Virus record (IMG/VR): IMGVR_UViG_3300023109_000157
Location: 1 to 22,668 of that record
DNA: 22,668 nt
Source: a virus
Direction: 5' to 3' (one strand)
Both the position numbers and the translations under genes were made by a program. This document shows positions 1 through 22,216 of the stretch, in pieces (position 1 is the stretch's first letter; each line of letters opens with the position of its first letter). The notes beneath the pieces were generated by a model. It did no database searches, had not been told where the DNA came from, and worked only from the letters and a program-made list of their open reading frames with translations.

Positions 1-1
1 T

Positions 2-313
2 AACTACGAGTGGACTTTCTGTTATGCTCACGCACTCGCAGAAGAATACAGGTACAGGTATGGAAAAGAGCACAAATCTTTCTGGCAGGTTGTTAACAAA
101 CTACCTGACCCAACACGACTTGAGAGGGTGGGGCTTACACCCTTTGCAATGGCAATGCCCGATGTACTCAAGGACGAGACTGACCCTATTCAGTCTTATC
201 GTAATTACTATATGCTTGACAAGGCTACTTTTGCCAGTTGGACAGGCAGAGACAAACCCTCCTGGTGGGACGAGGATTTGGCAGACTACGAGCAACGGAT
301 AACTAGACAATGA
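2..313 (+). CDS. Conserved phage protein, 3' part only
   Basis: The frame is open at the left window edge and gives the last 103 residues of a longer protein. The fragment is rich in aromatic residues, with a RYGKEHKSFW stretch near residue 20, TPFAMAMPD near 50, SYRNYYMLDKA near 65 and a final PSWW. From memory this pattern matches the C-terminal half of a protein widespread in marine phages whose N-terminal half carries a CDKHVVKM-like motif. I know of no assigned function and the N-terminal half is outside the window. The stop overlaps the ATG of the EcoRV-like gene by four bases (ATGA), so the two are probably cotranslated. It is clearly more G+C-rich than the gene after it. The coding call is firm; the family assignment rests on recall. 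Confidence 0.75.
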   Translation, partial: NYEWTFCYAHALAEEYRYRYGKEHKSFWQVVNKLPDPTRLERVGLTPFAMAMPDVLKDETDPIQSYRNYYMLDKATFASWTGRDKPSWWDEDLADYEQRITRQ

Positions 314-903
314 GTTTAGTAGAGCAGGCGAAAAAGTTACTGGAAGATGAAGTATTTGATTTTGAAATACTAGGATTTATTTCTAGTAGTGGAAAAATAT
401 ATAAATTAAAAACAGACACAAAGGTACTGTCTGCTCTTTTTGAAATGCTTTCAGAGGACTTTGTAGATAAACTAAGTAATGGACATGAAGTAGTGCAGCC
501 TGAGAAGCAAAACTACTACCCAGACTTTACTATAAAGACTCCCGAAGGCAATATAGCGATAGACGTAAAGACTACTTATAAACAAAGAACCAACGGGTTC
601 ACATTAGGTAGTTATACTTCTTTTATAAGAAGCAATACAAAAAACATTGTATACCCCTATGATACATATACTAAACATTATGTACTAGGATTTATATACG
701 AGCGTGACCCTAGTGGTAGTACTCCGTATAAGAATGTAGACGTGTTTTTTCAAGAGAAATGGAAGATTGCAGGTAAACGCCCTGGATCTGGAAATACAAA
801 AAATATAGGAAGTATAAAAGGAAACATAGACACTTTTATAAATCCTGAGCCAGTTTTTAACTCTCATGAAGAGTTCGAAGATTATTGGAGAAACTATGAG
901 TAA
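310..903 (+). CDS. EcoRV-like type II restriction endonuclease
   Basis: A 197-residue homologue of EcoRV, which cuts GATATC bluntly in the middle. Similarity to remembered EcoRV runs nearly end to end: SSGKIYKLKTDTKVL (26-40), YYPDFT (69-74), IAIDVKTTYK (82-91), SYTSFIRSNTKNIVYPYD (101-118), SGNTKNIGSI (160-169) and the final DYWRNYE. The catalytic triad is kept: D72, D85 and K87 match EcoRV D74, D90, K92. E45 and Q67 match E45 and Q69, and the recognition loop (about 159-165) is almost unchanged, so the same target is likely. EcoRV continues about 28 residues beyond DYWRNYER; here the frame stops and thyX begins inside the last codons. No methyltransferase gene is nearby. Isoleucine codons are 11 ATA, 3 ATT, 0 ATC, against 1 ATA and 11 ATT in thyX, suggesting separate origin. 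The likely role is cutting host or rival phage DNA (inference). Confidence 0.93.
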   Translation: MSLVEQAKKLLEDEVFDFEILGFISSSGKIYKLKTDTKVLSALFEMLSEDFVDKLSNGHEVVQPEKQNYYPDFTIKTPEGNIAIDVKTTYKQRTNGFTLGSYTSFIRSNTKNIVYPYDTYTKHYVLGFIYERDPSGSTPYKNVDVFFQEKWKIAGKRPGSGNTKNIGSIKGNIDTFINPEPVFNSHEEFEDYWRNYE

Positions 904-1585
904 TGTTAATTTAGTAGGGCTAACAAAGCCTAGCGGTATTACAGGGTGTAACACAGCAGAAGATTTAGTAGCATATGCTGCACGAGTAAGTAACCCAGAC
1001 AATCAAAACCACCCAGAAAGCGCACCACGACTGCTTAAATATCTTATTAAGCATGGACATTGGTCTCCTTTCGAGATGGTAAATATTACTATGGAGATTC
1101 GCACAACTCGAGATATTGCTCGACAAATTCTGCGACACCGTAGTTTTAGCTTTCAAGAGTTTAGTCAGCGCTATGCTGTAGTAGAGGATTTCTACTACCG
1201 TGAAGCACGTCTGCAAGACACTAAGAATCGGCAGAATAGTATTGAGCTAGAAGGTATTGAAGAGTTTGGTAAGGGAGGCAATAAGACCCCCAACGAACGA
1301 CTTTATGAAGACTGGAATATGAAACAGGCAAAGGTACTAGATGCTTCAAAGAAAGCCTATAAATGGGCTCTTGATAATGGTATTGCTAAAGAGCAGGCAC
1401 GAGCTGTGCTGCCTGAAGGCAACGCAGTGTCTACGCTATATATGGCGGGGAACTTACGATCTTGGATTCACTATTGTGAATTGCGGCGGGGTCATGGCAC
1501 TCAGAAAGAACATATGGTAGTAGCAGACCAGTGCTGGGAAATTATAAGACAGCATTTTCCTAGTGTAGCAGAGGCTGTGGAATGA
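896..1585 (+). CDS. thyX: Flavin-dependent thymidylate synthase ThyX
   Basis: ThyX makes dTMP from dUMP using methylene-tetrahydrofolate and FAD/NADPH. The 229-residue protein has the usual family length. It carries the ThyX signature RHR-x2-S-x4-S-x-R at residues 80-92 (RHRSFSFQEFSQR), the upstream HWSPFE (55-60), and the C-terminal block around LPEGNAVSTLYMAGNLRSW and LRRGHGTQKE that builds the substrate pocket. The usual Asn of the signature is Gln here (SFQEFS). I chose ATG 896 because GGAGA lies at 886-890 and this is where similarity begins; the frame is open ten codons further upstream. The start overlaps the end of the EcoRV-like gene and the stop overlaps the next start (ATGA). It serves thymidine supply with the RNR genes at the right end of the window. 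Confidence 0.95.
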   Translation: MSNVNLVGLTKPSGITGCNTAEDLVAYAARVSNPDNQNHPESAPRLLKYLIKHGHWSPFEMVNITMEIRTTRDIARQILRHRSFSFQEFSQRYAVVEDFYYREARLQDTKNRQNSIELEGIEEFGKGGNKTPNERLYEDWNMKQAKVLDASKKAYKWALDNGIAKEQARAVLPEGNAVSTLYMAGNLRSWIHYCELRRGHGTQKEHMVVADQCWEIIRQHFPSVAEAVE

Positions 1586-1830
1586 GTGGAATAAAAACAC
1601 ATGACCCAGTAAATAGTCCTTTACATTACAAGCGTGAGGGCATAGAATGTATTGATGCGATGATGCAGACCGCAGCGTCTGAAGACGCATTTCAAGAATA
1701 CTGTCGCCTTAACGCTTTTAAATATTTGTGGCGTTGCCATAATAAAGATAATCGTAAGCAAGATTTACGAAAGGCTATCTGGTACTTACAGATGGCTATA
1801 GGAGAGGATCCTCGTGAGCAAGGGCAGTAA
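1582..1830 (+). CDS. DUF3310 protein (T7 gp1.7-like)
   Basis: An 82-residue protein with the DUF3310 pattern: DPVNSPLHYKREGIECIDAM near the start, then FKYLWRCHNKDN and LRKAIWYLQMAI. From memory, T7 gp1.7, a nucleotide kinase acting on dTMP and dGMP, belongs to this family, though most members are uncharacterised. A kinase role beside ThyX would be logical but is inference. The start overlaps the thyX stop by ATGA and the end overlaps the next gene by 17 bases; the GGAGAGG near its own end (1801-1807) is the ribosome site of that next gene. Confidence 0.85.
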   Translation: MSGIKTHDPVNSPLHYKREGIECIDAMMQTAASEDAFQEYCRLNAFKYLWRCHNKDNRKQDLRKAIWYLQMAIGEDPREQGQ

Positions 1831-2041
1831 GCAGAGACCTACAGATAAAAGTAAGTTTGATACTAATTGGGAGAAAATTTTTGGCAAGAGTAAAGAAGAA
1901 AGATTACGAGAATCTGACATCGACCAACATCGAGAAGGTGATAGCTCACCTGACTGCGGATCAGCCGATCTCCAAGAAAGAAGCCTGTGGAATGCTGAAC
2001 ATAGCATACAACACGGCACGACTTCAGAGAATAATAGATGA
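1814..2041 (+). CDS. Small basic phage protein, tail overlapped by next gene
   Basis: GTG start with GGAGAGG at 1801-1807. Residues 1-30 (MSKGSKQRPTDKSKFDTNW then EKIFGKSKEER) match the N-terminus of small basic proteins that I recall from many phages, usually 40-60 residues and without known function. After about residue 30 the sequence (SPDCGSADLQERS and on) no longer looks like a natural protein; it is the other reading of the next gene, which starts out of frame at 1881. This leaves a 161-base overlap. The true product may be this 75-residue protein, or the first 30 residues joined to the next frame by a +1 shift. The start is well supported; the end is uncertain. Confidence 0.6.
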   Translation: MSKGSKQRPTDKSKFDTNWEKIFGKSKEERLRESDIDQHREGDSSPDCGSADLQERSLWNAEHSIQHGTTSENNR

Positions 2042-2570
2042 TCACGAAGATAAAAAACTGTATCGTGCAAAACGTAAGGCGCAGAATAAAGGAAGAGCAG
2101 CTTCAAGCGCAGAAATTGCTGAAGCAGTTCAACAGTTTCTTGGAGGAGACTCCATTACCGAAATCGCAAAAGGAATGTACAGATCCTCTGGATTCGTCAA
2201 AGCAATCATCCAAAGAGTAGGCGTTCCTCAAAAAACAGATCAAGTAATAGACTACTTGCCAGAAGAGTGTATTGCAGAAGACTTTGCTCCTGGAGAGCTA
2301 GTGTGGTCTGCTCGCTATCATGCTCCTGCTATTATTGAACGCGAAATATCTATAGACTATCAGGCGGAGAAGCCGGGGTTTATAGATACTGACTACGAAA
2401 AGAAGTATAGCAGCAAGTGCTACTCTATTTACGTAGTTCAAAAAATACGAGATGAGAGCGAAGTATGGGCTAACGTAGGTACTGGAGGTTTCAGTGCTTA
2501 TCAGCTTGCTTATGATTTAGGAAAACTCGAACACCTAAAACAATATGGCGTAGATTTATCACGTATTTAA
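1881..2570 (+). CDS. Phage protein with helix-turn-helix-like region
   Basis: A 229-residue product if started at TTG 1881, chosen because GGGAGA (1869-1874) stands six bases ahead and because similarity I recall in phage homologues begins just after it, at DYENLTSTNIEKVIAHLTAD. The first 55 residues (SKKEACGMLNIAYNTARLQRI) and the segment 70-120 (AEIAEAVQQFLGGDSITEIAK then YRSSGFVKAIIQRVGVP) both look like helix-turn-helix units, so DNA or RNA binding is likely. The C-terminal 100 residues hold a beta-rich part (GELVWSARYHAPAI, YSIYVVQKI, VWANVGTGGFSAYQLAYDLG) of unknown role. An upstream TTG at 1857 is also in frame but lacks a ribosome site. No precise function can be given. A promoter follows at once. 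Confidence 0.75.
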   Translation: MARVKKKDYENLTSTNIEKVIAHLTADQPISKKEACGMLNIAYNTARLQRIIDDHEDKKLYRAKRKAQNKGRAASSAEIAEAVQQFLGGDSITEIAKGMYRSSGFVKAIIQRVGVPQKTDQVIDYLPEECIAEDFAPGELVWSARYHAPAIIEREISIDYQAEKPGFIDTDYEKKYSSKCYSIYVVQKIRDESEVWANVGTGGFSAYQLAYDLGKLEHLKQYGVDLSRI

Positions 2571-2579
2571 AAATACTTC

Positions 2580-2608
2580 TTGACTTCTTTTGCTTAGTCT
2601 ACTATAAT
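2580..2608 (+). promoter_or_regulatory. Sigma-70 promoter P1
   Basis: TTGACT at 2580-2585 and TATAAT at 2603-2608 with a 17-bp spacer, preceded by AAAAATACTTC, the block shared with the other window promoters. It starts three codons' length after the stop at 2570 and drives the 31-residue membrane peptide and the DNA-binding gene after it. Confidence 0.88.
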
Positions 2609-2635
2609 ATATAGTATGGAAATGAGGGAAACAAC

Positions 2636-2731
2636 ATGGGTACAGTATTAATCGGGCTATTCACCTTAGGTGTATGTTTTGTTATTCTAGGCGCATACCT
2701 AACAATAGTAGAAACACACTTTGGGCGATAG
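2636..2731 (+). CDS. 31-residue single-span membrane peptide
   Basis: ATG 2636 has GAGGG at 2624-2628, seven bases ahead, and follows promoter P1 with a short leader. The product is almost entirely hydrophobic: residues 3-23 (VLIGLFTLGVCFVILGAYLTI) form one membrane helix, followed by a short polar tail VETHFGR. There is no similarity that I recognise. A promoter-proximal position and good ribosome site support real translation. It might act on the host membrane early in infection, or be a leader peptide for the next gene; both are guesses. Confidence 0.65.
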   Translation: MGTVLIGLFTLGVCFVILGAYLTIVETHFGR

Positions 2732-2750
2732 ATTTTATTATCAACAAATA

Positions 2751-2774
2751 GCCGCTACGGGCACGTGCCCCGGC
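2751..2774 (+). other. G+C-rich palindrome/hairpin in leader of DNA-binding gene
   Basis: GGGCACGTGCCC (2759-2770) is a perfect 12-bp palindrome, flanked by GCCG (2751-2754) and CGGC (2771-2774) that can extend an RNA hairpin past a CTAC bulge. No T-run follows, so it is not a standard terminator. It lies 28 bases ahead of the start at 2802. Possible roles are operator or translational control element. Confidence 0.45.
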
Positions 2775-2801
2775 GGTCCAATAAACAAAAGGAAACGTAA
2801 A

Positions 2802-3158
2802 ATGGCGTGGACAGACGAGAAAAAAGCAGAGGTTATCGAGGCATATGAGTCCGCTAACCCAACTCCAGAAAATAGTATGGAAATCGTCGCAGAAATTGCA
2901 GAAGAGCATGACGAGTCACCTAACGGTGTACGTATGGTTCTTACAAAAGCAGGTGTGTATGTAAAGAAAGCACCAGCAGCTAAATCATCTTCTGGTGGTA
3001 GTACTGGAGGCACTCGCGTCTCTAAAGCTGCCGCTATCGAATCTCTAACAGCAGCTATCTCTGATGCAGGTCAAGAAGTTGATGAAGAGATCGTCAGCAA
3101 GTTGACTGGTAAAGCAGCAATGTACTTTGCGGGATTAATTTCAGCTGTAAATAGTTAA
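2802..3158 (+). CDS. One-unit winged/Myb-like DNA-binding protein
   Basis: A 118-residue protein. I chose ATG 2802 because AAAGGAAA lies about seven bases ahead and MAWTDEK matches the start of the larger paralogue at 5645 (WTDER). Residues 1-54 form a helix-turn-helix-like unit: WTDEKKAEVIEAY, then MEIVAEIAEEHDESPNGVRMVLTKAG. A Ser/Gly/Ala/Lys linker follows (about 55-72), then a C-terminal helical part (TRVSKAAAIESLTAAISDAG and KLTGKAAMYFAGLISAVNS). Codons are unlike the A+T-rich neighbours, with many GCT, GCA and CGT, as in highly expressed genes. It is probably a DNA-binding regulator or chromosome-coating protein; no target is visible, although the palindrome in its own leader is a candidate. 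Transcribed from P1. Confidence 0.8.
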   Translation: MAWTDEKKAEVIEAYESANPTPENSMEIVAEIAEEHDESPNGVRMVLTKAGVYVKKAPAAKSSSGGSTGGTRVSKAAAIESLTAAISDAGQEVDEEIVSKLTGKAAMYFAGLISAVNS

Positions 3159-3166
3159 TTCTTATA

Positions 3167-3200
3167 GCGGGGTAGGTTAGGCCTTTGGCGTCCTCCCCGC
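3167..3200 (+). other. G+C-rich hairpin without T-run
   Basis: GCGGGG (3167-3172) pairs with CCCCGC (3195-3200), with AGG/CCT able to continue the stem past a bulged T. It follows the stop at 3158 by nine bases. The bases after it (GATTCACATT) contain no uridine tract, so it may be a 3' end-protecting structure rather than a full intrinsic terminator. Confidence 0.45.
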
Positions 3201-3266
3201 GATTCACATTCCTAAATAAGACGGTACGACAGAAGATTCTGCCAACCCGCTTCACTAGGAGCATAT

Positions 3267-3533
3267 GTGAAAAAAGAAGAACTAGCACAGCTCGTAAATG
3301 AGTATGGCGATGCTGTTATCACCTATCGTAGTGAAAACAGTAATAAGTTGAAATACAATGTTTGTACGTTGGACTTCAGCACGCCCTATATTCAACAAAA
3401 GAAAAACAGAGCAAAAGAGTCTACTCAAACTTTGTTAATGTTTTGTTGGGATACTGACTCCTTTCGACTTCTTAAACCTGCTAACGTGACAAGTGTAGTT
3501 CCGTTATCTTCCATTCTAAAAAATGGGCGGTAA
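3267..3533 (+). CDS. Conserved small phage protein, possible SH3-like barrel
   Basis: 88 residues from GTG 3267, with AGGAG at 3257-3261; the ATG two bases earlier runs straight into TGA. The sequence is beta-rich and compact: GDAVITYRSENSNKLKYNV, then LLMFCWDTDSFRLLKPANV and TSVVPLSSIL. From memory similar proteins occur in many phages and some are annotated as SH3-like barrel proteins, but I cannot confirm the family. The stop is followed after one base by the PC4-like start, so the two are one transcription unit. No promoter of the P1 type stands before it, and it is probably read from P1 through the hairpin. Confidence 0.75.
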   Translation: MKKEELAQLVNEYGDAVITYRSENSNKLKYNVCTLDFSTPYIQQKKNRAKESTQTLLMFCWDTDSFRLLKPANVTSVVPLSSILKNGR

Positions 3534-3534
3534 A

Positions 3535-3837
3535 ATGGAATTGTATAACGCACCCGAAGTGTATGAGAGAGTTGTACACTACGACAGGGAAAAAGAAGTA
3601 CAGATAAGGTTAACGATAAATAATTTTAGAGGTATAGAATATCTGCACCTTCGAAAGTATTATCTTGACTTTACTGAAGAATGGAAGCCCAGTAATGAGG
3701 GGATTGCCATGCCTCTTGATTTTAACAATTCAAGAGAACTATTTAGCGGGCTAGTCGAAATTTTATCTTTGGCTGAAAGTAAGGACATAATAGAGGAACA
3801 TTTCTCTGATATGATTAAGGACGTTTATACAAAATAG
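3535..3837 (+). CDS. PC4/Sub1-like single-stranded DNA-binding protein
   Basis: A 100-residue protein. ATG 3535 is preferred to ATG 3523 because GGGCGG lies just ahead and the upstream gene ends at 3533. Residues 21-77 have the PC4 coactivator pattern: IRLTINNFRGIEYLHLRKYY, then EWKPSNEGIAMPLDF and a final helix RELFSGLVEIL. In the known family, a four-stranded sheet plus helix dimerises and binds single-stranded or unwound DNA. It may act at promoter openings or replication forks of this phage. The stop TAG lies within the conserved AAAATAG upstream block of promoter P2. The domain call is from pattern recognition without alignment. Confidence 0.72.
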   Translation: MELYNAPEVYERVVHYDREKEVQIRLTINNFRGIEYLHLRKYYLDFTEEWKPSNEGIAMPLDFNNSRELFSGLVEILSLAESKDIIEEHFSDMIKDVYTK

Positions 3838-3840
3838 TTC

Positions 3841-3869
3841 TTGACTTTCCTTCTTGAATCCAGTATAAT
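3841..3869 (+). promoter_or_regulatory. Sigma-70 promoter P2
   Basis: TTGACT 3841-3846, 17-bp spacer, TATAAT 3864-3869, with AAAATAGTTC directly ahead. It drives the first ligase gene. Its upstream block contains the stop codon of the PC4-like gene. Confidence 0.9.
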
Positions 3870-3893
3870 ATCTGTTAATAAGTGAGGGAATCT

Positions 3894-4838
3894 ATGTATT
3901 CATTTTTAGAAAAAGCAGCGGCTATGTACTACTCAGGCACTCCGATAGTCTCGGATGCTGAGTTTGATAGTCTAGCCTCGCAGTACAATTATGATAGTGT
4001 GGGACATACCGTTACTAACGGCATTCCTCATCTATTTCGTATGTACTCGTTGCGAAAAGTTTTTGATTTAAATGAGGTAGAATTTGTAAGTGCAGAGTAT
4101 GTACGTACACCTAAGCTAGACGGCGCGGCGGTGTCTTTAACTTATGTTAATGGACACTTAGCCCAAGCTCTAACTCGTGGAGACGGTAATCTCGGAAGAG
4201 ATATTACGTTAAAACTAGAAGAGATAGTGCCCGTTACAGTCGGTATCAAACCTACGGTTCAGATTACCGGCGAAGTTGTTGCACCAAGCAACATACCAAA
4301 TGCTCGTAACTATGCAGCAGGTTCTTTGAATCTGAAAGATATGTCTGAGTTTCGATCTCGTGCCAAGGATTTACGCTTTGTAGCGTATGACATCCAGGGC
4401 AGAGGGGATTCCAGCTTTCGCAGTGCTATGAAGTGTTTAGCCTATCAAGGGTTTAATGTTATCACGGACTTCGATGCGTCTGATTATCCTACGGATGGAG
4501 ACGTATTTCGTATAGATAGCTATGACTCTTTTAACAAGATGGGATATACAGCTCATCATCCTCGCGGTGCTTTTGCTCTTAAAGAGCAGAAAGAGGGTGT
4601 ATATACAGTATTACTTGATGTTGTGTGGCAAGTAGGTAAGTCAGGGGTGGTAAGCCCAGTGGCAATCTTACAGCCTGTCGAAGTAGGAGATGCGCTTGTG
4701 AGCCGTGCAACTCTACATAACATTGAGTATATACGCTCCCTTAACCTAGAAATAGGTTGCGGGGTTGAAATTATACGAAGTGGGGAAATCATTCCACGAA
4801 TCGTTAGACGAGTGGACATCGAGAAAAATACTTCTTGA
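3894..4838 (+). CDS. ligA: NAD+-dependent DNA ligase, adenylation/OB subunit
   Basis: The N-terminal half of a LigA-type ligase, which seals nicks through a lysine-AMP intermediate made from NAD+. I start it at ATG 3894 (GAGG at 3884-3887; the in-frame GTG 3882 overlaps the ribosome site and lies close to the expected transcript start), giving 314 residues. Domain Ia, which binds NMN, is visible as YYSGTPIVSDAEFD (12-25). The nucleotidyl-transfer lysine is K74 in KLDG. TRGDGNLGRD (94-103) and NARNYAAGSLNLKD follow. An OB fold comes last, with VVWQVGKSGVVSPV and SRATLHNIEYI then IIRSGEIIPRIV. It stops before the zinc finger, which is coded by the next gene. It is shorter than the same part of E. 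coli LigA. Its stop TGA lies inside the -35 box of promoter P3. Confidence 0.95.
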   Translation: MYSFLEKAAAMYYSGTPIVSDAEFDSLASQYNYDSVGHTVTNGIPHLFRMYSLRKVFDLNEVEFVSAEYVRTPKLDGAAVSLTYVNGHLAQALTRGDGNLGRDITLKLEEIVPVTVGIKPTVQITGEVVAPSNIPNARNYAAGSLNLKDMSEFRSRAKDLRFVAYDIQGRGDSSFRSAMKCLAYQGFNVITDFDASDYPTDGDVFRIDSYDSFNKMGYTAHHPRGAFALKEQKEGVYTVLLDVVWQVGKSGVVSPVAILQPVEVGDALVSRATLHNIEYIRSLNLEIGCGVEIIRSGEIIPRIVRRVDIEKNTS

Positions 4839-4863
4839 CTTTTAGCTCAACTTCTCGTATAAT
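4835..4863 (+). promoter_or_regulatory. Sigma-70 promoter P3 between ligase halves
   Basis: TTGACT 4835-4840, 17-bp spacer, TATAAT 4858-4863, preceded by AAAAATACTTC. The TGA stop of the first ligase gene (4836-4838) is part of the -35 hexamer, and the shared upstream block codes for the last residues (NTS) of that protein. It drives the second ligase gene and the four-unit DNA-binding gene. Confidence 0.9.
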
Positions 4864-4889
4864 ATCTTTTCACTAAATCGGAGTAGTTC

Positions 4890-5642
4890 ATGTTTCAAGA
4901 AATCTTACCTCCTACACATTGTCCTTCTTGTGATAATGCGTTAGATTGGGTCAATGATTCTTTGTACTGTAATAACAGTCTGTGCCCTGCACAGAACAGC
5001 AAAGCAGTGGAACATTTTGCTAAAACAATGAAGATCAAGGGCCTTGGCCCTGCTTCTATTAGCAAACTGAAATGGCAATGCCCTTCTGATATTTACACTA
5101 CAGAACGTAGTAGTATCTTAGCATCATTAGGCTCCGAGTTAGTGACAAATAAACTGCAGGGGGAAATTATGAATTCTCGTAACGCACCCCTGGAGTTTCT
5201 TTTACCTGCCTTTGGTATACCCTTGATTGGAAACACGGCAACACGGAAGTTGTCTGAGACTATTAATTCTATATTTGACCTCAATGCAGACACTTGTGAA
5301 CGTGCAGGATTGGGTCCGAAGGCTACTAGTAATTTACTCGACTGGTGCGAACAGGAGTTGCCTTACTTCTTAGAAGTAATGCCTCATTACTGGGAGTTCT
5401 CAGAAAATGCAATGCCCGCGAGTAGAAGTACAGTATGTATTAGTGGTAGATTGAAGAGTTTCAAAAGCAAAGCTGATGCTACTAATGCTTTGAATGCGGC
5501 TGGTTATGAAGTAAAAACTAGTCTTACAAAACAGGTAGACTTCCTCATCAATGAAGGTGGGACAGAGTCTGCTAAAACACGACAAGCCAGAGACACTGGC
5601 GTTACTATAGTAACTGATCTTAGATCATTTTTGGAGAATTAA
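4890..5642 (+). CDS. NAD+-dependent DNA ligase, zinc finger/HhH/BRCT subunit
   Basis: A 250-residue protein equal to the C-terminal half of LigA. The Cys4 zinc finger is C11, C14, C27, C32 (CPSCDNALDW then LYCNNSLCPAQ). Helix-hairpin-helix repeats follow: MKIKGLGPASISKL near 47-60, then LPAFGIPLIGNTATRKL near 106-122. The BRCT domain is about 177-250 (STVCISGRLKSFKSKADATN through VTIVTDLRSFLEN). It has its own promoter P3 and ATG with CGGAG about seven bases ahead, so it is a real separate gene, not the product of a recent frameshift. It should pair with the adenylation subunit to form one working ligase. From memory phage T5 also has a two-gene NAD+ ligase, so the split has precedent. Confidence 0.93.
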   Translation: MFQEILPPTHCPSCDNALDWVNDSLYCNNSLCPAQNSKAVEHFAKTMKIKGLGPASISKLKWQCPSDIYTTERSSILASLGSELVTNKLQGEIMNSRNAPLEFLLPAFGIPLIGNTATRKLSETINSIFDLNADTCERAGLGPKATSNLLDWCEQELPYFLEVMPHYWEFSENAMPASRSTVCISGRLKSFKSKADATNALNAAGYEVKTSLTKQVDFLINEGGTESAKTRQARDTGVTIVTDLRSFLEN

Positions 5643-5644
5643 AT

Positions 5645-6367
5645 ATGGCACTTCCTAAGTGGACAGACGAGCGCACCGACGCTCTCACAACTTTCGTAGG
5701 CGACGAATCGCCTGTATCTCAAGCTACTGTTGCAGAAGCAGCAGATCAACTTGAAACCTCTACTCGTTCTATCTCTAGCAAACTGCGAAAGATGGGCTTT
5801 GATGTAGAGCTAGCTTCTTCTGCTGGTGGCAAGTCCTTCAGCGACTCACAAGAAGCTACCCTAAACGCTTTCGTTACTGACAACAGCGGTCAGTACACGT
5901 ATGCTCAAATTGCAGAGCATTTCGAAGGCGGGTCTTTCTCACCTAAGTCTATCCAAGGCAAGATTTTGTCTATGGAATTGACTGAGCACGTTGCACCTGC
6001 TCCTAAGGTTGAGTCTGTACGAACTTACTCAGAAGCTGAAGAAGTTACTTTTATTGGCATGGTAAACGACGGTGCGTTCGTTGAAGCTATTGCTGCTGAA
6101 CTCGACCGCTCAGTAAACTCTGTTCGTGGTAAAGCACTTTCATTGCTCCGTTCGGGCGATATTGCTGCAATTCCACGTCAAGAGACTACTAAAGGTTCTT
6201 CTAACGTAGATCCTTTGGCAGAAGTTGATGTTGCTGCTATGACTGTAGAAGCTATTGCCGATTCTATTGGCAAGACTGCTCGTGGTGTGAAGACTATGTT
6301 GACACGTCGCGGTTTGACTGCAGCTGACTATGATGGTGCCGCTAAGGCAGCTAAGACAGCTCAGTAA
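5645..6367 (+). CDS. Four-unit winged/Myb-like DNA-binding protein
   Basis: A 240-residue protein built of about four related helix-turn-helix-like units of 40-55 residues. Unit 1 (about 5-57) starts WTDERTDAL and ends SSKLRKMGFDVE; unit 2 (about 63-115) starts FSDSQEATLNAFV and ends IQGKILSMEL; unit 3 (about 126-172) starts YSEAEEVTFIGMV and ends VRGKALSLLRSG; unit 4 (about 193-230) has MTVEAIADSIGKTARGVKTM. Each has a W/F/Y-[TS]-[DE] opening and a final basic helix like a recognition helix. The protein at 2802 has one such unit. Codon choice (GCT, CGT, TCT) is of the highly expressed kind. A strong terminator follows. Array of units plus strong expression suggest a DNA-coating or transcription factor role, but this is inference. 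Confidence 0.82.
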   Translation: MALPKWTDERTDALTTFVGDESPVSQATVAEAADQLETSTRSISSKLRKMGFDVELASSAGGKSFSDSQEATLNAFVTDNSGQYTYAQIAEHFEGGSFSPKSIQGKILSMELTEHVAPAPKVESVRTYSEAEEVTFIGMVNDGAFVEAIAAELDRSVNSVRGKALSLLRSGDIAAIPRQETTKGSSNVDPLAEVDVAAMTVEAIADSIGKTARGVKTMLTRRGLTAADYDGAAKAAKTAQ

Positions 6368-6386
6368 TTACACTTCTGTGTAGGTG

Positions 6387-6418
6387 GGCTGGCTAGGGTC
6401 TTTCTGGTCAGCCTTTTT
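6387..6418 (+). terminator. Rho-independent terminator
   Basis: GGCTGGCTAGG (6387-6397) pairs with TCTGGTCAGCC (6403-6413), 11 pairs including some G-U, around a five-base loop, followed by TTTTT. It lies 20 bases after the four-unit DNA-binding gene and ends the P3 unit. Confidence 0.9.
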
Positions 6419-6435
6419 AATGTTCGGGGGAACGA

Positions 6436-7785
6436 TTGAATATTTCAAGTGCTTTAATGAAGCAGTGTATCATGCTGCAAGATTTTGAAACGTGGAGTTA
6501 TCTACGCAAAGAATACTTGCCTGCAGAATATCATCTGCTATTTAATCATATTGATAAGCACTGCGAAAGTTTTCATGAGTTCCCTACGTTCGATGATCTC
6601 AAGCTAGGCGTTCGACACGGAGCTACTAGAGACAAAGTCTTCGCTATAGAAGCTGTCGATGTAGATATTGATGCCGGAACCTTACTTGAGTATCTCAAAA
6701 ACGAATATACTCAGAAAGAGATATTAAATTCTCTTGATAAGTATATTGATAATTCTGTATTGTTTGCAAGTGCAGAAGAGTCAGTTCAAGAACTTCATCA
6801 GATTGTTCTTGATGTGGAGGACAAGGTTGACCTTGAAGTACCCACAGAAAGTATGCAACGTATTGAATTGTTTGAACCTGAAGAAGAGATTAGCAAATAT
6901 GTTGGTCTTGGACTTAATGCTGATTACGATCACGAGATCAAGTTCTCCCCCCGAGACTTGGTACTTGTGGGAGGCAAGCGCGGTTCTGGTAAGTCTTTAA
7001 CGTGTGCTAATATTGCAAATAATGTATTTCAGTCTGGCCGTTCTGCTATCTACTTCACTATTGAAATGGATAGTCGTTCAATATTGCAACGATGTTGTTC
7101 GATTGCAACTGAAGTGCCATATTCTCGACTTCGCACACAGAATCTTTCTGTTGTAGAGTGGGAGAAGGTGGCCGGCTGGTGGGCAAGTCGCTTCCAGCAA
7201 GGTCAGGACAGGTTGAAAGAATACAGAGAGCGCCGAGACTTCTCTGACTTTCATCATAAATTAACAACTCAGCATGAGCTTCTCCCGACTCAACAGCTAG
7301 ATGTAATTTATGATCCAAGTTTAACTCTTGCTAAAATACGTGCAGAGTTAGATAAGAAAGTCAATAAGATAGAAGCAGGAGTGATCATTGTAGACTATAT
7401 CAACCAAGTAAAACGTTCGGCCGTTCCCTCTCGGGGAGGGCAGTATGATTGGACGGAACAGATTGAAGTATCCAAGGCTCTCAAGGCTATGGCACAGGAG
7501 TATGAATGCACTGTATTCTCTCCGTATCAAACCGATGCTACTGGCGAAGCCAGGTTTGCAAAAGGTATTCTTGACGCCGCTGACGCAGCTTACGCGCTAG
7601 AAACTTGGGATCAAGAAGATGCTTGTATTACATTTAATTGTGTAAAAATGCGAGCAGCTAGTATGAAATCTTTTAGTTCTACTATGGACTGGGAGAGTTT
7701 AAAGATTGGTCCTGAGACAACTTTGACACCAAAGGAGCGTGAAGCTAGCTCTCACAAAACGGATGAAGATATAGACGATCTCTAA
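6436..7785 (+). CDS. DnaB-like replicative helicase
   Basis: A 449-residue RecA-fold helicase that should unwind the fork ahead of the polymerase as a hexameric ring. TTG 6436 is chosen because GGGGG (6426-6430) stands five bases ahead; the next ATG (6457) has no good ribosome site. An N-terminal helical region (about 1-150) precedes the ATPase domain. Walker A is GGKRGSGKS (179-187), then YFTIEMDSRSI (H1a-like, catalytic Glu), and Walker B is VIIVDYINQVK with D320. Later VFSPYQTDATGEARFAKGIL fits the DnaB loop region. The C-terminus is acidic. Priming is supplied separately by the gene at 8990. No P-type promoter is visible between the terminator at 6418 and the start, so it depends on readthrough or on a promoter I cannot see. 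Confidence 0.9.
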   Translation: MNISSALMKQCIMLQDFETWSYLRKEYLPAEYHLLFNHIDKHCESFHEFPTFDDLKLGVRHGATRDKVFAIEAVDVDIDAGTLLEYLKNEYTQKEILNSLDKYIDNSVLFASAEESVQELHQIVLDVEDKVDLEVPTESMQRIELFEPEEEISKYVGLGLNADYDHEIKFSPRDLVLVGGKRGSGKSLTCANIANNVFQSGRSAIYFTIEMDSRSILQRCCSIATEVPYSRLRTQNLSVVEWEKVAGWWASRFQQGQDRLKEYRERRDFSDFHHKLTTQHELLPTQQLDVIYDPSLTLAKIRAELDKKVNKIEAGVIIVDYINQVKRSAVPSRGGQYDWTEQIEVSKALKAMAQEYECTVFSPYQTDATGEARFAKGILDAADAAYALETWDQEDACITFNCVKMRAASMKSFSSTMDWESLKIGPETTLTPKEREASSHKTDEDIDDL

Positions 7786-7792
7786 TATTTTC

Positions 7793-7822
7793 TTGACATT
7801 TGTAGCCCTCTTCGTGTATAAT
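7793..7822 (+). promoter_or_regulatory. Sigma-70 promoter P4, overlapping a terminator
   Basis: TTGACA 7793-7798, 18-bp spacer, TATAAT 7817-7822. The upstream block (AATATTTTC) is the most divergent of the six. The -10 box forms the loop of the terminator at 7806-7842. Confidence 0.85.
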
Positions 7823-7842
7823 AGCGTGAAGAGGGTTTTTTT
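7806..7842 (+). terminator. Rho-independent terminator with promoter -10 in its loop
   Basis: CCCTCTTCGTG (7806-7816) pairs with CGTGAAGAGGG (7825-7835), 11 pairs with two G-U, followed by seven T (7836-7842). The loop is TATAATAG (7817-7824). It ends transcripts coming from the helicase gene. Transcripts begun at P4 (expected start near 7829) lack the 5' arm and should escape it. Confidence 0.9.
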
Positions 7843-7866
7843 ATAACTAATAAAAGAGATAAAATT

Positions 7867-8148
7867 ATGCAAAGTAGTACCTATTACACAAATCGTTATG
7901 GAGATCAATACTTTTGGCACCCTATAAACGAGAATACCTACGAGTTTAAAACGGTTGGAAATTTTACGGAGCACTGTCGTATGGGTTTCAAGGTTTCTGA
8001 CGAAGAAAGAGTCGACTATACAGACTTATTGTTTTTTGACCCTAGTGGTGGTCCTTTTGTGGACTATGCTACAGTAATAGACAACAGAAAAGTGTGCCAT
8101 ATTGAGTGGCATAGTGGGGCTTTCTATGTAGAAGTATGTGACGAATAG
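7867..8148 (+). CDS. Hypothetical protein, 93 residues
   Basis: First gene after P4; ATG 7867 has AAGAGA nine bases ahead. The protein is aromatic and acidic, with two likely beta-rich parts (QYFWHPINENTYEFKTVGNF and VCHIEWHSGAFYVEVCDE) and no membrane segment or signal peptide. I recognise no family. It seems to be the only gene between P4 and P5, so P4 may serve mainly this product, or run on through P5. Confidence 0.75.
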   Translation: MQSSTYYTNRYGDQYFWHPINENTYEFKTVGNFTEHCRMGFKVSDEERVDYTDLLFFDPSGGPFVDYATVIDNRKVCHIEWHSGAFYVEVCDE

Positions 8149-8175
8149 TACCCCCATACTTTCTAAAAATAGTTC

Positions 8176-8204
8176 TTGACTTTTTCTGTTAAATCAAGTA
8201 TAAT
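8176..8204 (+). promoter_or_regulatory. Sigma-70 promoter P5
   Basis: TTGACT 8176-8181, 17-bp spacer, TATAAT 8199-8204, with AAAAATAGTTC ahead. It is the likely origin of the long unit that includes primase, polymerase, phoH and the SF2 helicase. Confidence 0.9.
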
Positions 8205-8232
8205 ATATGCTTATTCGAATGGAGACTTATGT

Positions 8233-8544
8233 ATGGGAATGTTTTACGGTAGTCTAAACCACACCCCTTCAGGACGCAAGAAGAAAAGGAGACCCAGTGT
8301 TAAAAAGAGCACATCTAAGACGTTTACAGATTTCACAACAAGCACGAAGACGTATGCAGATGTTAGACGAGAGTCCGACGTTTATTACCCCTCGAGGGAT
8401 GACACAACTGGTTCTACCCCTCGTAGAGAGTCCCCAAGATACACCGGAACACTCATCCGAGGAATCGCAACAATGCACAAATCAAACGCAGTCCCTGTGA
8501 CTAGTAACCAACAGGCTGTAGACATATCGAGAATGGCAAAATGA
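8233..8544 (+). CDS. Basic conserved phage protein
   Basis: 103 residues from ATG 8233, with GGAGA at 8221-8225. The ATG at 8229 is in another frame and gives only seven codons. The N-terminus MGMFYGSLNHTPSGRKKKRRP is short, aromatic and very basic; the middle is Ser/Thr-rich and probably disordered; the C-terminal block YTGTLIRGIATMHKSNAVPV looks like the conserved core that I recall from other phage genomes. Function unknown. The charge suggests nucleic acid contact. It overlaps the next start by ATGA. Confidence 0.75.
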   Translation: MGMFYGSLNHTPSGRKKKRRPSVKKSTSKTFTDFTTSTKTYADVRRESDVYYPSRDDTTGSTPRRESPRYTGTLIRGIATMHKSNAVPVTSNQQAVDISRMAK

Positions 8545-8828
8545 CTTTAAAAAACAAAAGATTAGCACCTAAAATTACTGAGCTATTTGATAGCTTAGAA
8601 GCAAGTATGTCTTCAGAAGACTACGAACACGCGGATGTTATTCTTGCACGTTTGTCTAAGTATTTTCATGTATTTGATGATGAGCATACAGATTACTATC
8701 AATACGTACAGCATGAAGTAGAGTTGCGTATTCATGGATTAGATGTAGAAGATTATGAGGAGCCTTTGTTCGACTGGGATGGAGATGCTTTGGCATCCGC
8801 AGGTTTCGGAACCGATGAAGATTATTAA
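8541..8828 (+). CDS. Hypothetical acidic protein
   Basis: 95 residues, strongly acidic, with no membrane segment. The first half is helical (ITELFDSLEASMSSEDYEHA), and the end is DWDGDALASAGFGTDEDY. It begins in the stop of the previous gene (ATGA) and its end overlaps the next gene by 14 bases, so it sits in the P5 operon. I recognise no family or motif that would give a function. Confidence 0.7.
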   Translation: MTLKNKRLAPKITELFDSLEASMSSEDYEHADVILARLSKYFHVFDDEHTDYYQYVQHEVELRIHGLDVEDYEEPLFDWDGDALASAGFGTDEDY

Positions 8829-8985
8829 TAAGATATGGCGTATATGGAAGTACTCTATAGGTAGTTTTTCAGATGAGCAAACTGCGGAGTATGATAATGC
8901 AGTAGCTGTAACAAGAAGTTTTATTGTGTTAATAAATGTGATATGTGCCTGTCTTATTATGCTAAATATCCTAAAAAACTGGTGA
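8815..8985 (+). CDS. Small phage membrane protein
   Basis: 56 residues from ATG 8815; the longer open frame upstream only shadows the previous gene. The N-terminus is basic and amphipathic (MKIINKIWRIWKYSIGS), the middle is acidic (DEQTAEYDN), and the C-terminal half is one membrane span (SFIVLINVICACLIMLNIL) ending KNW. From memory small proteins of this layout recur beside phage replication genes, but no role is known. Its place directly ahead of primase could mean a link between replication and membrane; that is a guess. Confidence 0.7.
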   Translation: MKIINKIWRIWKYSIGSFSDEQTAEYDNAVAVTRSFIVLINVICACLIMLNILKNW

Positions 8986-8989
8986 TTAA

Positions 8990-9823
8990 GTGAACGTAGA
9001 AGACCTACTCAGATCAAAAGATATTCCTTACATTCCTAAAGGCGGTGACTTTGTTGTTAGTTGTCTTAACCCTGAGCACGCGGATAGAAATCCTAGTATG
9101 CGTATAGATCAAGTAACTGGTATCTTCAATTGTTTTTCTTGTGAGTACAAAGGTAATTTGTTTACTCATTATGGTGAAAAAGCCAATAAAATGGAGATTA
9201 AGAGACAGCTTCTTAAAAAGAAGATTGATGAAGTAAGATCTGAGAGTATTGGCCTACAAATGCCTGAAGGTTACCTACCTTATGTGGGAAGCTGGAGAAA
9301 TATAGCAGGAGCTACATATAAAGACTTCGGAGCCTTTATTCATGCTGGAAAAGACTTTGTAGGTAGAATATGTTTTCCGGTTCGAGACCGCTCAGGTAGA
9401 ATAGTAGCATTTCAATCCAGAGCAACAGGCGATCAACAGCCTAAGTATTTAAATACGCCTCCAGGTGCAAAGCTACCTTTATTTCCTACAGTTACTCCTA
9501 TTCAAGGGAGAGTTATAATGGTAGAGGGAATATTCGATGTACTTAACCTACACGATAAAGGACTTACAAATGCTGTATGTTGTTTTGGTGTAAAGAATGT
9601 AAATGAAGAAAAACTACAGGTGCTCTCTGTATCAGGAGTAGACGGAGTAGATGTTTTCTTAGATAATGATGATGCCGGCCAGTCCGGGTCTGTAAAATTA
9701 AGGGAGTTGTGCGAGACAGTGGGTCTCGATACTCGTAACATTGCTTTTGGGAACAAAAACATGGATGCGGGTGCATTAACTGAATCTCAAGTAATTAAAT
9801 TAAAGAGTAAATTATATGCCTAA
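8990..9823 (+). CDS. DNA primase (zinc finger plus TOPRIM)
   Basis: 277 residues from GTG 8990, with GGTG at 8981-8984. It makes RNA primers for replication. The zinc-binding part is C25, H30, C48, C51 (CLNPEHADRNPS then FNCFSCEYKG), as in T7 gp4 and DnaG primases. The TOPRIM domain has VEGIFD with catalytic E179 and D183, and DNDD (225-228) for metal binding. SRATGDQQPKYLNTPPGAKL near 140-160 fits the catalytic core. It lacks a helicase domain; the ring helicase is coded at 6436. Its end overlaps the polymerase start by eight bases, so polymerase translation is coupled to it. Confidence 0.93.
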   Translation: MNVEDLLRSKDIPYIPKGGDFVVSCLNPEHADRNPSMRIDQVTGIFNCFSCEYKGNLFTHYGEKANKMEIKRQLLKKKIDEVRSESIGLQMPEGYLPYVGSWRNIAGATYKDFGAFIHAGKDFVGRICFPVRDRSGRIVAFQSRATGDQQPKYLNTPPGAKLPLFPTVTPIQGRVIMVEGIFDVLNLHDKGLTNAVCCFGVKNVNEEKLQVLSVSGVDGVDVFLDNDDAGQSGSVKLRELCETVGLDTRNIAFGNKNMDAGALTESQVIKLKSKLYA

Positions 9824-12083
9824 AGTTGCATTAGTAGAAACTAAACCAAGTAGAACTAATTTCAAATCAGAGTTCGATTTTGACTTCGATCAATTTCAAC
9901 TTTGCTCAGATGCCAGTCTTAAAAAAGTTTTAAAGCGAGACTGCGACATTGACATGAATCCAGACGACTATGAGTGGATTGTACTCGTAGGTTCGGATGC
10001 CATGAAATATTATACCAAACTCAGCTCTGTAACCGAATATTCTGGAAAAAAGGTAGAGGGCAAATTTTTGCCTGTAATCAATCCTGCCATGCTAGCATTC
10101 AAACCCGAAGCAAAAAAGACCTGGGAAGAAAGTGTCAAAAGCATTCATGCGTATGTTGCTGGAGAAGTAGAAGATGTAATTATTGATTCTAGTATTGCTT
10201 TTGGTATACAAGATACGGAACAAGCCAATGAATTTATTGAAGCAGCTATACAGTATGATAGTGACTACATTGCACTCGACTCTGAAACAACTGGCCTTTA
10301 TCCTAGGGATGGTTATATGTTGGGCATTAGCCTTAGCTATGATGGTAAGCGCGGCGCTTACATTGATACTGATTGTTTTAGTAGTAGAACTGAGCAACTT
10401 TTACAACAACTTTTCGATAAGAAAACAGTAGTATTTCATAATGCAAAGTTTGACATGGCATTCTTTGAGTACCACTTTCACTTTAAATTTCCTCAATTTG
10501 AGGATACTATGTTGCTCCATTACCTCATAGACGAGAATCCTGGAGGGCACGGGCTTAAGCAACTAACAATGAAGTTTACTCCTTACGGAGACTATGAAAA
10601 GCCTATGTACGATTGGATAGACCAGTATAGAAAAGAACACGGCATTCTCAAAGACCAGTTCAATTGGGGGGATATTCCTTTTGATGTAATGAAAACATAC
10701 GCAGGTATGGATGCCTTGTGTACTCTTCTTATTTATGAGAAGTTTATTAAAATTAAGCAAAACAAAAAACTAAAATGGGTATATGATAATATACTTATTC
10801 CCGGTACTCGCTTTCTAATAGACACCCAAGATAATGGTGTTCCGTTTGATAAAAAGCGTTTATATGTAGGACAAGATGCAATGCAAACTGATATAGATGA
10901 AGCTATTGCTGCTTTGTATAAAAATGATAATATACAAAGATTCGAGGAACTTAATGGAAAGCCTTTTAATCCCAATTCTACTGTTCAACTTCGTAGTTTG
11001 TTATTTGACTTCTTGGGCCTTAGACCTACAGGAAAGAAAACAGGAACGGGTGCGGACTCTACTGATGCGGAAGTGCTCAACGAACTTAGCCTTCAAAGCG
11101 ATGTACCTAAGCGGATCTTGGATATACGACAAAAATCTAAAATCAAGAATACTTATCTTGACAAGATCATACCTCAACTCGACCGAGATTCTCGTCTCCG
11201 TACTGGGTTCAATCTACATGGTACAACTAGTGGTAGGCTTAGTTCTAGTGGTAAACTTAATATGCAACAGTTGCCTAGAGACAACCCCACTGTGAAAGGC
11301 TGTATTAAAGCATCCGAAGGGCATAAGATCGTAGCTATGGATTTAACAACAGCAGAAGTATATGTTGCTGCGATACTTGCAAAAGATAATGCTCTGATGG
11401 ATGTATTCAAGTCTGGAGGCAACTTTCATAGTACGATTGCTCATAAAGTATTTAGACTTCCGTGTGAACCCGAACAAGTGGCAGAGCTATACCCAGATCG
11501 ACGACAGGCTGCAAAAGCTGTTACCTTTGGAATTATGTATGGTGCAGGTCCTGCAAAGATTAGTGAGCAAGTAACAAAAGATAGTGGAAAATATTTTTCA
11601 AAACATGAAGCTACAGAAGTTATTAATGATTACTTTGGTGCGTTTCACAAACTAAAGGCATGGATTGATGATAATCAAAAATTTATTGAACAAAATGGCT
11701 TCGTTTATTCTTTCTTTGGTAGGAAGAGGAGGCTTCCGAACGTTGCGTCCACCGATGCGGGCATCAGGAGTCATAGCATTCGTTCTGGTCTTAATTTTTT
11801 GGTTCAGTCCGCTGCTTCTGATATTAATCTACTTGGCGCAATAGACATGGGCGAATACATAAAAGCGAACAATATGAAGGCTAGAATCTTTGCGCTTGTA
11901 CACGACTCTATTCTTGCAGAAGTTCCAGAGGATGAAATTGAACACTATAACGAAAAGCTGTTACAGTTTATACAAATGGATAGAGGACTATCTATTCCGG
12001 GAGCCCCGGTTGGATGCGACTTCGATGTTGCAGAAGACTACTCCCTCGGAAAATTCTCAAAAATGTATGGTGATACAATATAA
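9816..12083 (+). CDS. polA: Family A DNA polymerase with 3'-5' exonuclease
   Basis: 755 residues, no 5' nuclease domain (that is coded separately at 19610). The proofreading domain shows DSETTGLYP (Exo I), FHNAKFDMAFF (Exo II) and YAGMDALCT (Exo III). Polymerase motif A is MDLTTAEVYVAA with D509 in place of the usual DYSQIELR, motif B is RRQAAKAVTFGIMYG, and motif C is LVHDSILAE with D697, where the usual Glu after the Asp is Ser698. The residue matching E. coli Pol I F762 is F571, the wild-type Phe form found in many virulent phages. The N-terminal 140 residues show no known domain. ATG 9816 overlaps primase, and the end overlaps the next gene by 17 bases. The function is secure. Confidence 0.96.
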   Translation: MPKVALVETKPSRTNFKSEFDFDFDQFQLCSDASLKKVLKRDCDIDMNPDDYEWIVLVGSDAMKYYTKLSSVTEYSGKKVEGKFLPVINPAMLAFKPEAKKTWEESVKSIHAYVAGEVEDVIIDSSIAFGIQDTEQANEFIEAAIQYDSDYIALDSETTGLYPRDGYMLGISLSYDGKRGAYIDTDCFSSRTEQLLQQLFDKKTVVFHNAKFDMAFFEYHFHFKFPQFEDTMLLHYLIDENPGGHGLKQLTMKFTPYGDYEKPMYDWIDQYRKEHGILKDQFNWGDIPFDVMKTYAGMDALCTLLIYEKFIKIKQNKKLKWVYDNILIPGTRFLIDTQDNGVPFDKKRLYVGQDAMQTDIDEAIAALYKNDNIQRFEELNGKPFNPNSTVQLRSLLFDFLGLRPTGKKTGTGADSTDAEVLNELSLQSDVPKRILDIRQKSKIKNTYLDKIIPQLDRDSRLRTGFNLHGTTSGRLSSSGKLNMQQLPRDNPTVKGCIKASEGHKIVAMDLTTAEVYVAAILAKDNALMDVFKSGGNFHSTIAHKVFRLPCEPEQVAELYPDRRQAAKAVTFGIMYGAGPAKISEQVTKDSGKYFSKHEATEVINDYFGAFHKLKAWIDDNQKFIEQNGFVYSFFGRKRRLPNVASTDAGIRSHSIRSGLNFLVQSAASDINLLGAIDMGEYIKANNMKARIFALVHDSILAEVPEDEIEHYNEKLLQFIQMDRGLSIPGAPVGCDFDVAEDYSLGKFSKMYGDTI

Positions 12084-12561
12084 TACAATTAGTAAGATTC
12101 GATTTCCTGTCTATATTATGCCTAGTGGTAACTGGGATAGGCAGGATGGACTCTTGTTTCTAGAAGGACAGATTATAGATGATAAGAATATGTCCGGAGA
12201 TACACTAGGAATTAGACGTGTGCAAACACCTCATAAGAATCTGTACCCTTTAAAACACCAGATAGAAAACTTTAGAGGGTTATTGAAGTCTAAAGTAAAT
12301 ACTTTTATAGATACTAATGGATTTCCATTTATCTATGAAAAAACTGAGTTCTGTAAACTAAAATACTATAGAATTCAGGCTGTACAGCAAAAAGATACTG
12401 CTTCTGTGCTTACGCTTCATGGAGTAAAGAATCGTTTTGTTATACCTCGTCCTCCTGCTACTGAAATGCGGTATGCAGGAGTCCTACACTACGGAAAAGT
12501 TCCGTGGATTTTATACGAGTATTCCGAAGAACTCTTAAAGGACACTCGAAGGAAAGTATGA
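12067..12561 (+). CDS. Conserved hypothetical phage protein
   Basis: 164 residues from ATG 12067, inside the end of the polymerase gene; the same frame stays open upstream but reads as polymerase shadow. The protein is basic and aromatic with many short strands: IRFPVYIMPSGNWDRQDG, RRVQTPHKNLYPLKHQIEN, EFCKLKYYRIQAV, VIPRPPATEMRYAG and PWILYEYSEELLKDTRRKV. From memory similar proteins lie near replication genes of other phages, without known role. Close coupling to polymerase suggests a replication accessory function, but I see no motif that would prove it. Confidence 0.75.
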   Translation: MVIQYNTISKIRFPVYIMPSGNWDRQDGLLFLEGQIIDDKNMSGDTLGIRRVQTPHKNLYPLKHQIENFRGLLKSKVNTFIDTNGFPFIYEKTEFCKLKYYRIQAVQQKDTASVLTLHGVKNRFVIPRPPATEMRYAGVLHYGKVPWILYEYSEELLKDTRRKV

Positions 12562-12567
12562 TATTAT

Positions 12568-13227
12568 ATGGGTAAACGATCTAAAACACTACAAGGCGCA
12601 AACTTAGATTTGCAAGAAATTGAACCTCTCACTAAAAACCAATTATTAGCTTTTGAAAGCGATAAAAACATGGTTTTACATGGAGTAGCAGGTACAGGAA
12701 AAACATTTATTTCTTGTTACCTCGCCTTTGATGATATGATTAAAGGCACCTACGATAAATTAGTACTTATTCGTAGTGCAGTACCTACAAGAGATATAGG
12801 ATTCTTGCCAGGAAACGAAAAAGAGAAAGCATCTGTTTATGAAGAGCCGTACAAAGATATTTGTATTGAGTTATTTCAACGAGGGGACGCCTACCAAATT
12901 TTAAAAACAAAAGGTCTAGTACATTTTATGACAACATCTTTTATTCGTGGTGTTACACTAAGAAATGCCACAATTATTGTAGATGAGTGTCAGAATATGT
13001 CATTTCACGAATTAGACTCTATCATTACTCGTGTGGGGCAAGAGTGTAGAGTTATATTTTGTGGGGACTTTCGTCAAGCCGATTTATCTAAGAATGGTTT
13101 ACGAGATTTCATCCGTGTATTAAAAGCTATGGAGTGCTTTGATATTGTTGACTTTGAAATCAATGATATTGTAAGAAGTGACTTCGTAAAAGAATACATC
13201 ATAGCAAAGGACCGTCTAGGATTATAA
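12568..13227 (+). CDS. phoH: PhoH-like P-loop ATPase
   Basis: 219 residues. Walker A is GVAGTGKT (39-46) and Walker B is IIVDECQNM with D139 and E140, then a sensor-like VIFCGDFRQADL; all fit the PhoH family, ATPases related to helicase domain 1. The N-terminal PhoH feature, LTKNQLLAFESDKNMVLHGV, is also there. phoH is common in marine phages, but its function in infection is still unsettled; RNA-related work has been proposed. No phosphate-dependent regulatory site is visible here. The ATG stands 13 bases after GAAGGAAAG, a weak ribosome site, and the stop shares its A with the next ATG (TAATG). Confidence 0.93.
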   Translation: MGKRSKTLQGANLDLQEIEPLTKNQLLAFESDKNMVLHGVAGTGKTFISCYLAFDDMIKGTYDKLVLIRSAVPTRDIGFLPGNEKEKASVYEEPYKDICIELFQRGDAYQILKTKGLVHFMTTSFIRGVTLRNATIIVDECQNMSFHELDSIITRVGQECRVIFCGDFRQADLSKNGLRDFIRVLKAMECFDIVDFEINDIVRSDFVKEYIIAKDRLGL

Positions 13228-14510: not shown

Positions 14511-14528
14511 ACCTAGAAAAAATACTTC

Positions 14529-14557
14529 TTGACAAATACTTCAGATGAGTGTATAAT
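14529..14557 (+). promoter_or_regulatory. Sigma-70 promoter P6
   Basis: TTGACA 14529-14534, 17-bp spacer, TATAAT 14552-14557, preceded by AAAAAATACTTC. The following gene's first ATG begins at the base after the -10 box. It is the only strong promoter seen for the right-hand unit (SSB to nrdB). Confidence 0.88.
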
Positions 14558-14959
14558 ATGTTGTTATATAATTGGAATAAGATATTTAAGACAGCCGAAG
14601 GAAGCCCTTTTGCTATCTTTTTAATCTTCAAAATGATGACTACGGCAGCAATACCGAGAAATAAATATGACAGACTTTATAAGTATACTAATATTAGCTT
14701 TTCTGGCGAATCCTTTTTGGTACACCCAGACGTTCTATTGTTTAATGCTTATAAATACGAATATAGCGAGATAGCCCAGTATCTTGCTCTAGCTTCAATG
14801 CGTCCCTATGCGGACTATTTAGCAACTGGGAAAACCACACTGGACTCAATTCTTTGCGAACTGGCTCCAGAATTATTTAATGAAAATAGACTACTCTATG
14901 CGGAAGGTGGTGACATCCATTTTTTGTACGAAGAAGTCAATAAGGAGAAATTACACTAA
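14558..14959 (+). CDS. Conserved hypothetical phage protein
   Basis: 133 residues if started at ATG 14558. This start is kept because MLLYNWNKIF and AEGSPFAIFLIFKM look like part of the protein family I recall from other phages; the next in-frame ATG (14633) would remove them. No ribosome site stands before either one. Main blocks are IPRNKYDRLYKYTNISFSGE, SFLVHPDVLLFNAYKYEYSE and LALASMRPYADYLATGKTTL; the protein is helical and soluble. Function is unknown. The stop shares its A with the SSB start (TAATG), so it is cotranslated with SSB. Confidence 0.7.
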   Translation: MLLYNWNKIFKTAEGSPFAIFLIFKMMTTAAIPRNKYDRLYKYTNISFSGESFLVHPDVLLFNAYKYEYSEIAQYLALASMRPYADYLATGKTTLDSILCELAPELFNENRLLYAEGGDIHFLYEEVNKEKLH

Positions 14960-18953: not shown

Positions 18954-18965
18954 CAGGACTTAGAA

Positions 18966-22214: not shown

Positions 22215-22216
22215 AA

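Follow-up and report, generated by a model that had tools for sequence, protein, structure and literature searches.

What use would a phage have for a restriction endonuclease gene with no methyltransferase gene beside it? The question is raised by a gene in the window (the whole stretch of DNA analysed here, a virus record of 22.7 kb), which an earlier note had read as a homologue of EcoRV serving the phage as a solitary, site-specific restriction enzyme. EcoRV itself (R.EcoRV) belongs to a Type IIP restriction–modification (R-M) system of an E. coli plasmid. The record is probably a genome fragment, and the remainder of the phage genome therefore lies outside the window.

The gene encodes a real EcoRV-family restriction endonuclease. 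Its protein matches PF09233 (Endonuc-EcoRV) with an E-value of 1.2e-42 and 146.5 bits, against a cut-off of 25, and EcoRV chains in the PDB match residues 8–197 at E about 1e-54; identity to EcoRV is about 50%. In an alignment of 19 phage, bacterial and viral homologues (alignment A2), E45, D72, D85 and K87 are invariant, and both the PD...D-x-K active site and the recognition loop of the EcoRV family are present in the phage protein (Table 1), which bears out the homology, with D72, D85, K87 and the loop, that had been claimed. Structure prediction and alignment to EcoRV, proposed earlier as a check, gave the same answer: the alignment-based model (used here; the single-sequence fold was poor, at pLDDT 36) has a pLDDT of 84.5 and is predicted to adopt the EcoRV fold, its best 39 PDB matches being EcoRV structures with TM-scores of about 0.86–0.90. 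The protein ends at YWRNYE, without the C-terminal tail of EcoRV (about 25 residues of a 245-residue chain) and without one internal segment, and so represents a shortened version of EcoRV, not a full-length one. Among the PDB matches of the model is 2GE5, a C-terminal deletion mutant of EcoRV bound to GATATC, which matters because EcoRV runs on beyond the point where the phage protein stops.

Table 1. Features of the window around the EcoRV-family gene
Feature	Position	Strand	Basis or remark
GATATC absent	1..22668	.	0 observed vs 4.3–5.6 expected in the window
Upstream operon gene, phrog_624, DNA-binding, cut by the window start	2..313	+	Stop overlaps EcoRV start (ATGA)
Solitary EcoRV-family restriction endonuclease, short form, 197 aa	310..903	+	Pfam, PDB, alignment, model, dN/dS
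Q-loop Q67-N68 and catalytic Y70-P71-D72 (PD motif)	508..525	+	Alignment A2: Y70, P71, D72 invariant; Q67 at least 90%
Catalytic D85-x-K87 motif	562..570	+	D85, K87 invariant in alignment A2
Recognition loop GSGNTKN, residues 159–165	784..804	+	G159, S160, T163, N165 invariant; G161, N162 at least 90%
thyX	896..1585	+	Probable start 896 overlaps EcoRV stop (ATGAGTAA)
DUF3310 protein, 82 aa	1582..1830	+	PF11753 E=7.7e-16; PHROG labels

ATGA overlaps tie the gene to its neighbours at both ends, the phrog_624 gene upstream and thyX downstream; the listed thyX reading frame opens at 866, and the ATG at 896 fits the overlap. An operon with thyX and a possible nucleotide kinase had been proposed, of which the link to thyX stands and the kinase is doubtful, as the next gene encodes the DUF3310 protein, for which the kinase name comes from PHROG labels only. 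The replication module of the window is T5-like, with a polymerase about 44% identical to those of T5-like Aeromonas and Vibrio phages, and Pfam also places a DNA ligase, a DnaB-type helicase, a primase, PhoH and a ribonucleotide reductase in the window. In relatives, the slot at the position of the EcoRV gene is empty or filled by other genes, and the gene therefore sits in a cargo position of the replication operon. Inspected by eye in translation, a relative without the gene (L042) has at about 0.9–2.0 kb, between the phrog_624 gene and the DUF3310 gene, an isocitrate lyase-like reading frame, an unusual metabolic gene for a phage. Also by eye, reading frames at 5707–7879 of L010, upstream of its EcoRV gene, resemble Hsp20, an IscU/NifU-like iron–sulphur scaffold, a phage lysozyme and a peroxiredoxin.

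Copies 92–100% identical were found in twelve IMG/VR records and one contig of a metagenome-assembled genome (MAG), and the carriers belong to a T5-like marine phage group, in which they form four or more lineages. The MAG is labelled ‘Halieaceae’, and its contig could be a piece of phage DNA that was binned with it. Comparisons of diverged lineages give dN/dS values of 0.02–0.05, with dS of up to 0.85, and the highest ratio, 0.07, comes from one very close pair of carriers. These ratios indicate that strong purifying selection maintains the protein in the window clade.

The absence of a partner methylase, the other main claim of the earlier note, was borne out in the window and in the other carrier records searched. 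A Pfam scan of the 29 window proteins returned no DNA methyltransferase among the matches listed (families for 25 of the 29), and nor did searches with PF02086, PF01555, PF00145 and PF05869. The sole methyltransferase in the window (18306–18953, inside the replication module) is FkbM-type (PF05050) and was rejected as a DNA methylase. In the window-clade carrier records, where the sequence searched covers about 24–35 kb per lineage, searches for methylases of the D12, N6/N4, C5 and Dam families found none. By comparison of positions, all 11 bacterial contigs have a D12 methylase no more than about 200 bp away from the EcoRV gene, and one also adjoins a long-form homologue in nine viral records (G039–G042 and G046–G050); a tenth long-form viral record, G051, stops just past the EcoRV gene. 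Neither hallmark of a Type II R-M system is seen in the window-clade records: no cognate methyltransferase is linked to the gene, and the sequenced carrier DNA has no GATATC whose methylation could protect it.

The GATATC count of the window is by itself too small to serve as evidence (Table 1). In the pooled window-clade carriers, GATATC is the only absent hexamer among the 1,764 with an adequate expectation, and it is the most reduced of 2,024 hexamers in carriers relative to gene-less relatives. Since these ranks compare hexamers inside the same redundant pool, contig overlap alone does not create them. With overlaps collapsed to four lineages, about 85% identical to the window at the DNA level, GATATC occurs 0 times in 111 kb, where the rate seen in relatives with the slot covered and the gene absent would give 17.7, though the site counts are not fully independent because the lineages share ancestry. 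Where those gene-less relatives have GATATC, the aligned carriers mostly differ by one to three changes (GATATT, GATATA). In the same carrier pool ATCGAT and AAGCTT are strongly depleted as well, at observed/expected ratios of 0.09 and 0.11 (0.27 and 0.37 in gene-less relatives), and host restriction may be the cause.

A second solitary short form, of 212 aa and also ending in YWRNYE, was found by alignment search in G043 (66 kb), G044 and G045, a group unrelated to the window clade and equipped with a family-B polymerase. In the 66 kb of G043, GATATC occurs 0 times against 24 expected; of 896 hexamers no other is absent. Gene-less sisters of G043, with polymerases about 88–92% identical, carry 0.40–0.44 GATATC per kb (24 and 13 sites in whole records), and from this rate 33 sites would be expected in the 84 kb of the second group, where there are none. 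No D12 methylase was found in the 66 kb of G043, and its one methylase-like gene was rejected as a partner, as the gene-less sisters have that gene too. The long-form records with both enzyme and methylase retain GATATC, at 13, 3, 8, 4 and 18 sites. Carriers of the solitary gene in both groups have lost GATATC whereas carriers of the full R-M pair keep it, a pattern that the earlier note had not described. In the tree, the window clade branches close to EcoRV and the second group separately; the two may nevertheless share a single origin. Further viral scans returned no more members of the second group or of the related gene of the haloarchaeal virus HGTV-1.

Based on these observations, we favour, at a probability of roughly 0.78, an active GATATC-specific endonuclease that is safe for its carrier through a purged genome and is used against host or competitor DNA. 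The specificity for GATATC is read from the loss of sites in carriers. The EcoRV-type enzyme would be made during infection, alongside the products of the replication and nucleotide genes, in a T5-like marine phage that has no cognate methylase. Any new GATATC in the phage DNA would be self-damaging, selection would strip out every one, and the phage would be immune because none is left. The enzyme would then cut whatever other DNA in the cell contains GATATC without protection, whether from the host chromosome, a plasmid or a co-infecting phage, gene-less sister phages with remaining sites included. Cleavage products could be recycled into dNTPs, and breakdown of host DNA for nucleotide supply would fit the thyX and ribonucleotide reductase neighbours; for activity, expression, target and recycling alike, this is what we infer. 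Weighing against this reading are the missing C-terminal tail and the shortfall of GATATC already present in gene-less T5-like relatives. The solitary restriction enzyme used by a phage that the earlier note had proposed is well supported by the lack of a methylase in the carrier records, the selection on the protein and the gene-linked loss of exactly GATATC in two groups, and its interpretation as a whole is supported in part.

Other explanations for the missing sites start from the host or from the sequence itself. Phages commonly avoid host restriction sites, and gene-less T5-like relatives are already below expectation for GATATC (observed/expected 0.39–0.45), so that hosts with EcoRV-like R-M systems could have driven the avoidance while the phage gene is incidental, either a captured fragment or a decoy subunit poisoning host EcoRV dimers. 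We regard this as unlikely, though the strongest of the competitors: total loss follows the gene and not the phage group, as the site-bearing sisters of G043 illustrate, the catalytic residues are retained under strong purifying selection, and a decoy would make the purging of sites unnecessary. Chance or base composition would have some purchase on the window alone, where so low a count is expected and several other palindromes are missing too, but it hardly enters into consideration once GATATC proves the sole missing hexamer in two groups and is present in gene-less sister genomes.

Two further explanations concern how the gene itself is kept. A cognate methylase might be encoded elsewhere in the phage genome or supplied by the host, the separated pair protecting as a normal system does; the window-clade genomes are incomplete, and bacteria are known to have R-M pairs whose genes are not linked (PMC3488263). 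A methylase would, however, make purging needless, the long-form viral homologues that have one retain their sites, and in G043 neither the D12 search nor the shared methylase-like gene supplies a candidate, all of which makes this quite improbable. Marginally less probable again is a selfish gene of the homing type, which would bring the phage no benefit and would spread through cuts made in gene-less relatives at the slot or close to it. This reading would suit the variable cargo slot and the sites present in gene-less relatives, but GATATC, as a 6-bp palindrome, is common and scattered over the genome, unlike a long target at the slot, and whole-genome purging fits a general cutter.

If the enzyme is indeed a GATATC cutter made safe by a purged genome, there are wider consequences. 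The textbook restriction enzyme comes as a nuclease with its methylase, whereas the window phage seems to use the nuclease by itself and to rely on its own genome sequence for the antidote. As a purged hexamer can reveal the specificity of an enzyme from sequence alone, scans of this kind could uncover further solitary restriction enzymes of phages, each with its site. Site content would also predict which competing phages are vulnerable, so that phage–phage warfare by restriction becomes directly testable. With less confidence than in the reading for this locus, we lean towards a general one, in which lytic phages have on more than one occasion acquired the nuclease of a Type II R-M system, trimmed it and become immune by erasing one hexamer from their genomes, so that a bacterial defence enzyme serves as a methylase-free attack on host and competitor DNA.

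We found no report in the open-access papers searched of a phage solitary Type IIP enzyme with matching site loss, and on phage-encoded solitary restriction enzymes nothing direct beyond bacterial solitary enzymes and R-M genes of haloarchaeal viruses. The window gene is not the first viral EcoRV homologue: gene 181 of HGTV-1, a haloarchaeal tailed virus, precedes it and is annotated as EcoRV in GenBank. Like the window gene, it is viral, of the short form (197 aa) and without a D12 methylase in the whole genome, but it is 32% identical and its recognition loop is altered (GSGTT). In the whole HGTV-1 genome (KC292026.1), GATC and CTAG are absent, AGCT nearly so, and many 6-bp palindromes are missing; its zero count of GATATC is for that reason uninformative, and we rejected it as a test of site purging.

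Among better-known systems, PacI, with an 8-bp site, resembles the phage enzyme in having no methylase and differs in being bacterial and unrelated. Solitary bacterial enzymes of this kind are tolerated because sites are lacking, and the host strain of PacI is reported to be site-free (PMC3488263). Viral R-M systems, in chloroviruses and haloarchaeal tailed viruses, are proposed to break down the DNA of hosts or competitors (PMC8651126), but they pair the nuclease with a methylase, whereas in the window phage the antidote would be the absence of sites. The intron endonuclease of PhiPA3 serves interference competition (PMC11620839); it too is a phage nuclease that harms co-infecting phage, but of the homing type and in an intron, whereas the window enzyme is of a Type IIP family and its putative site is short and common. 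With EcoRV the window enzyme shares its sequence family and fold, the catalytic residues, the recognition loop and, judging from the site loss, GATATC specificity, and it differs from EcoRV in being phage-borne, in having neither the C-terminal tail, the internal segment nor a linked D12 methylase, and in having a site-free carrier.
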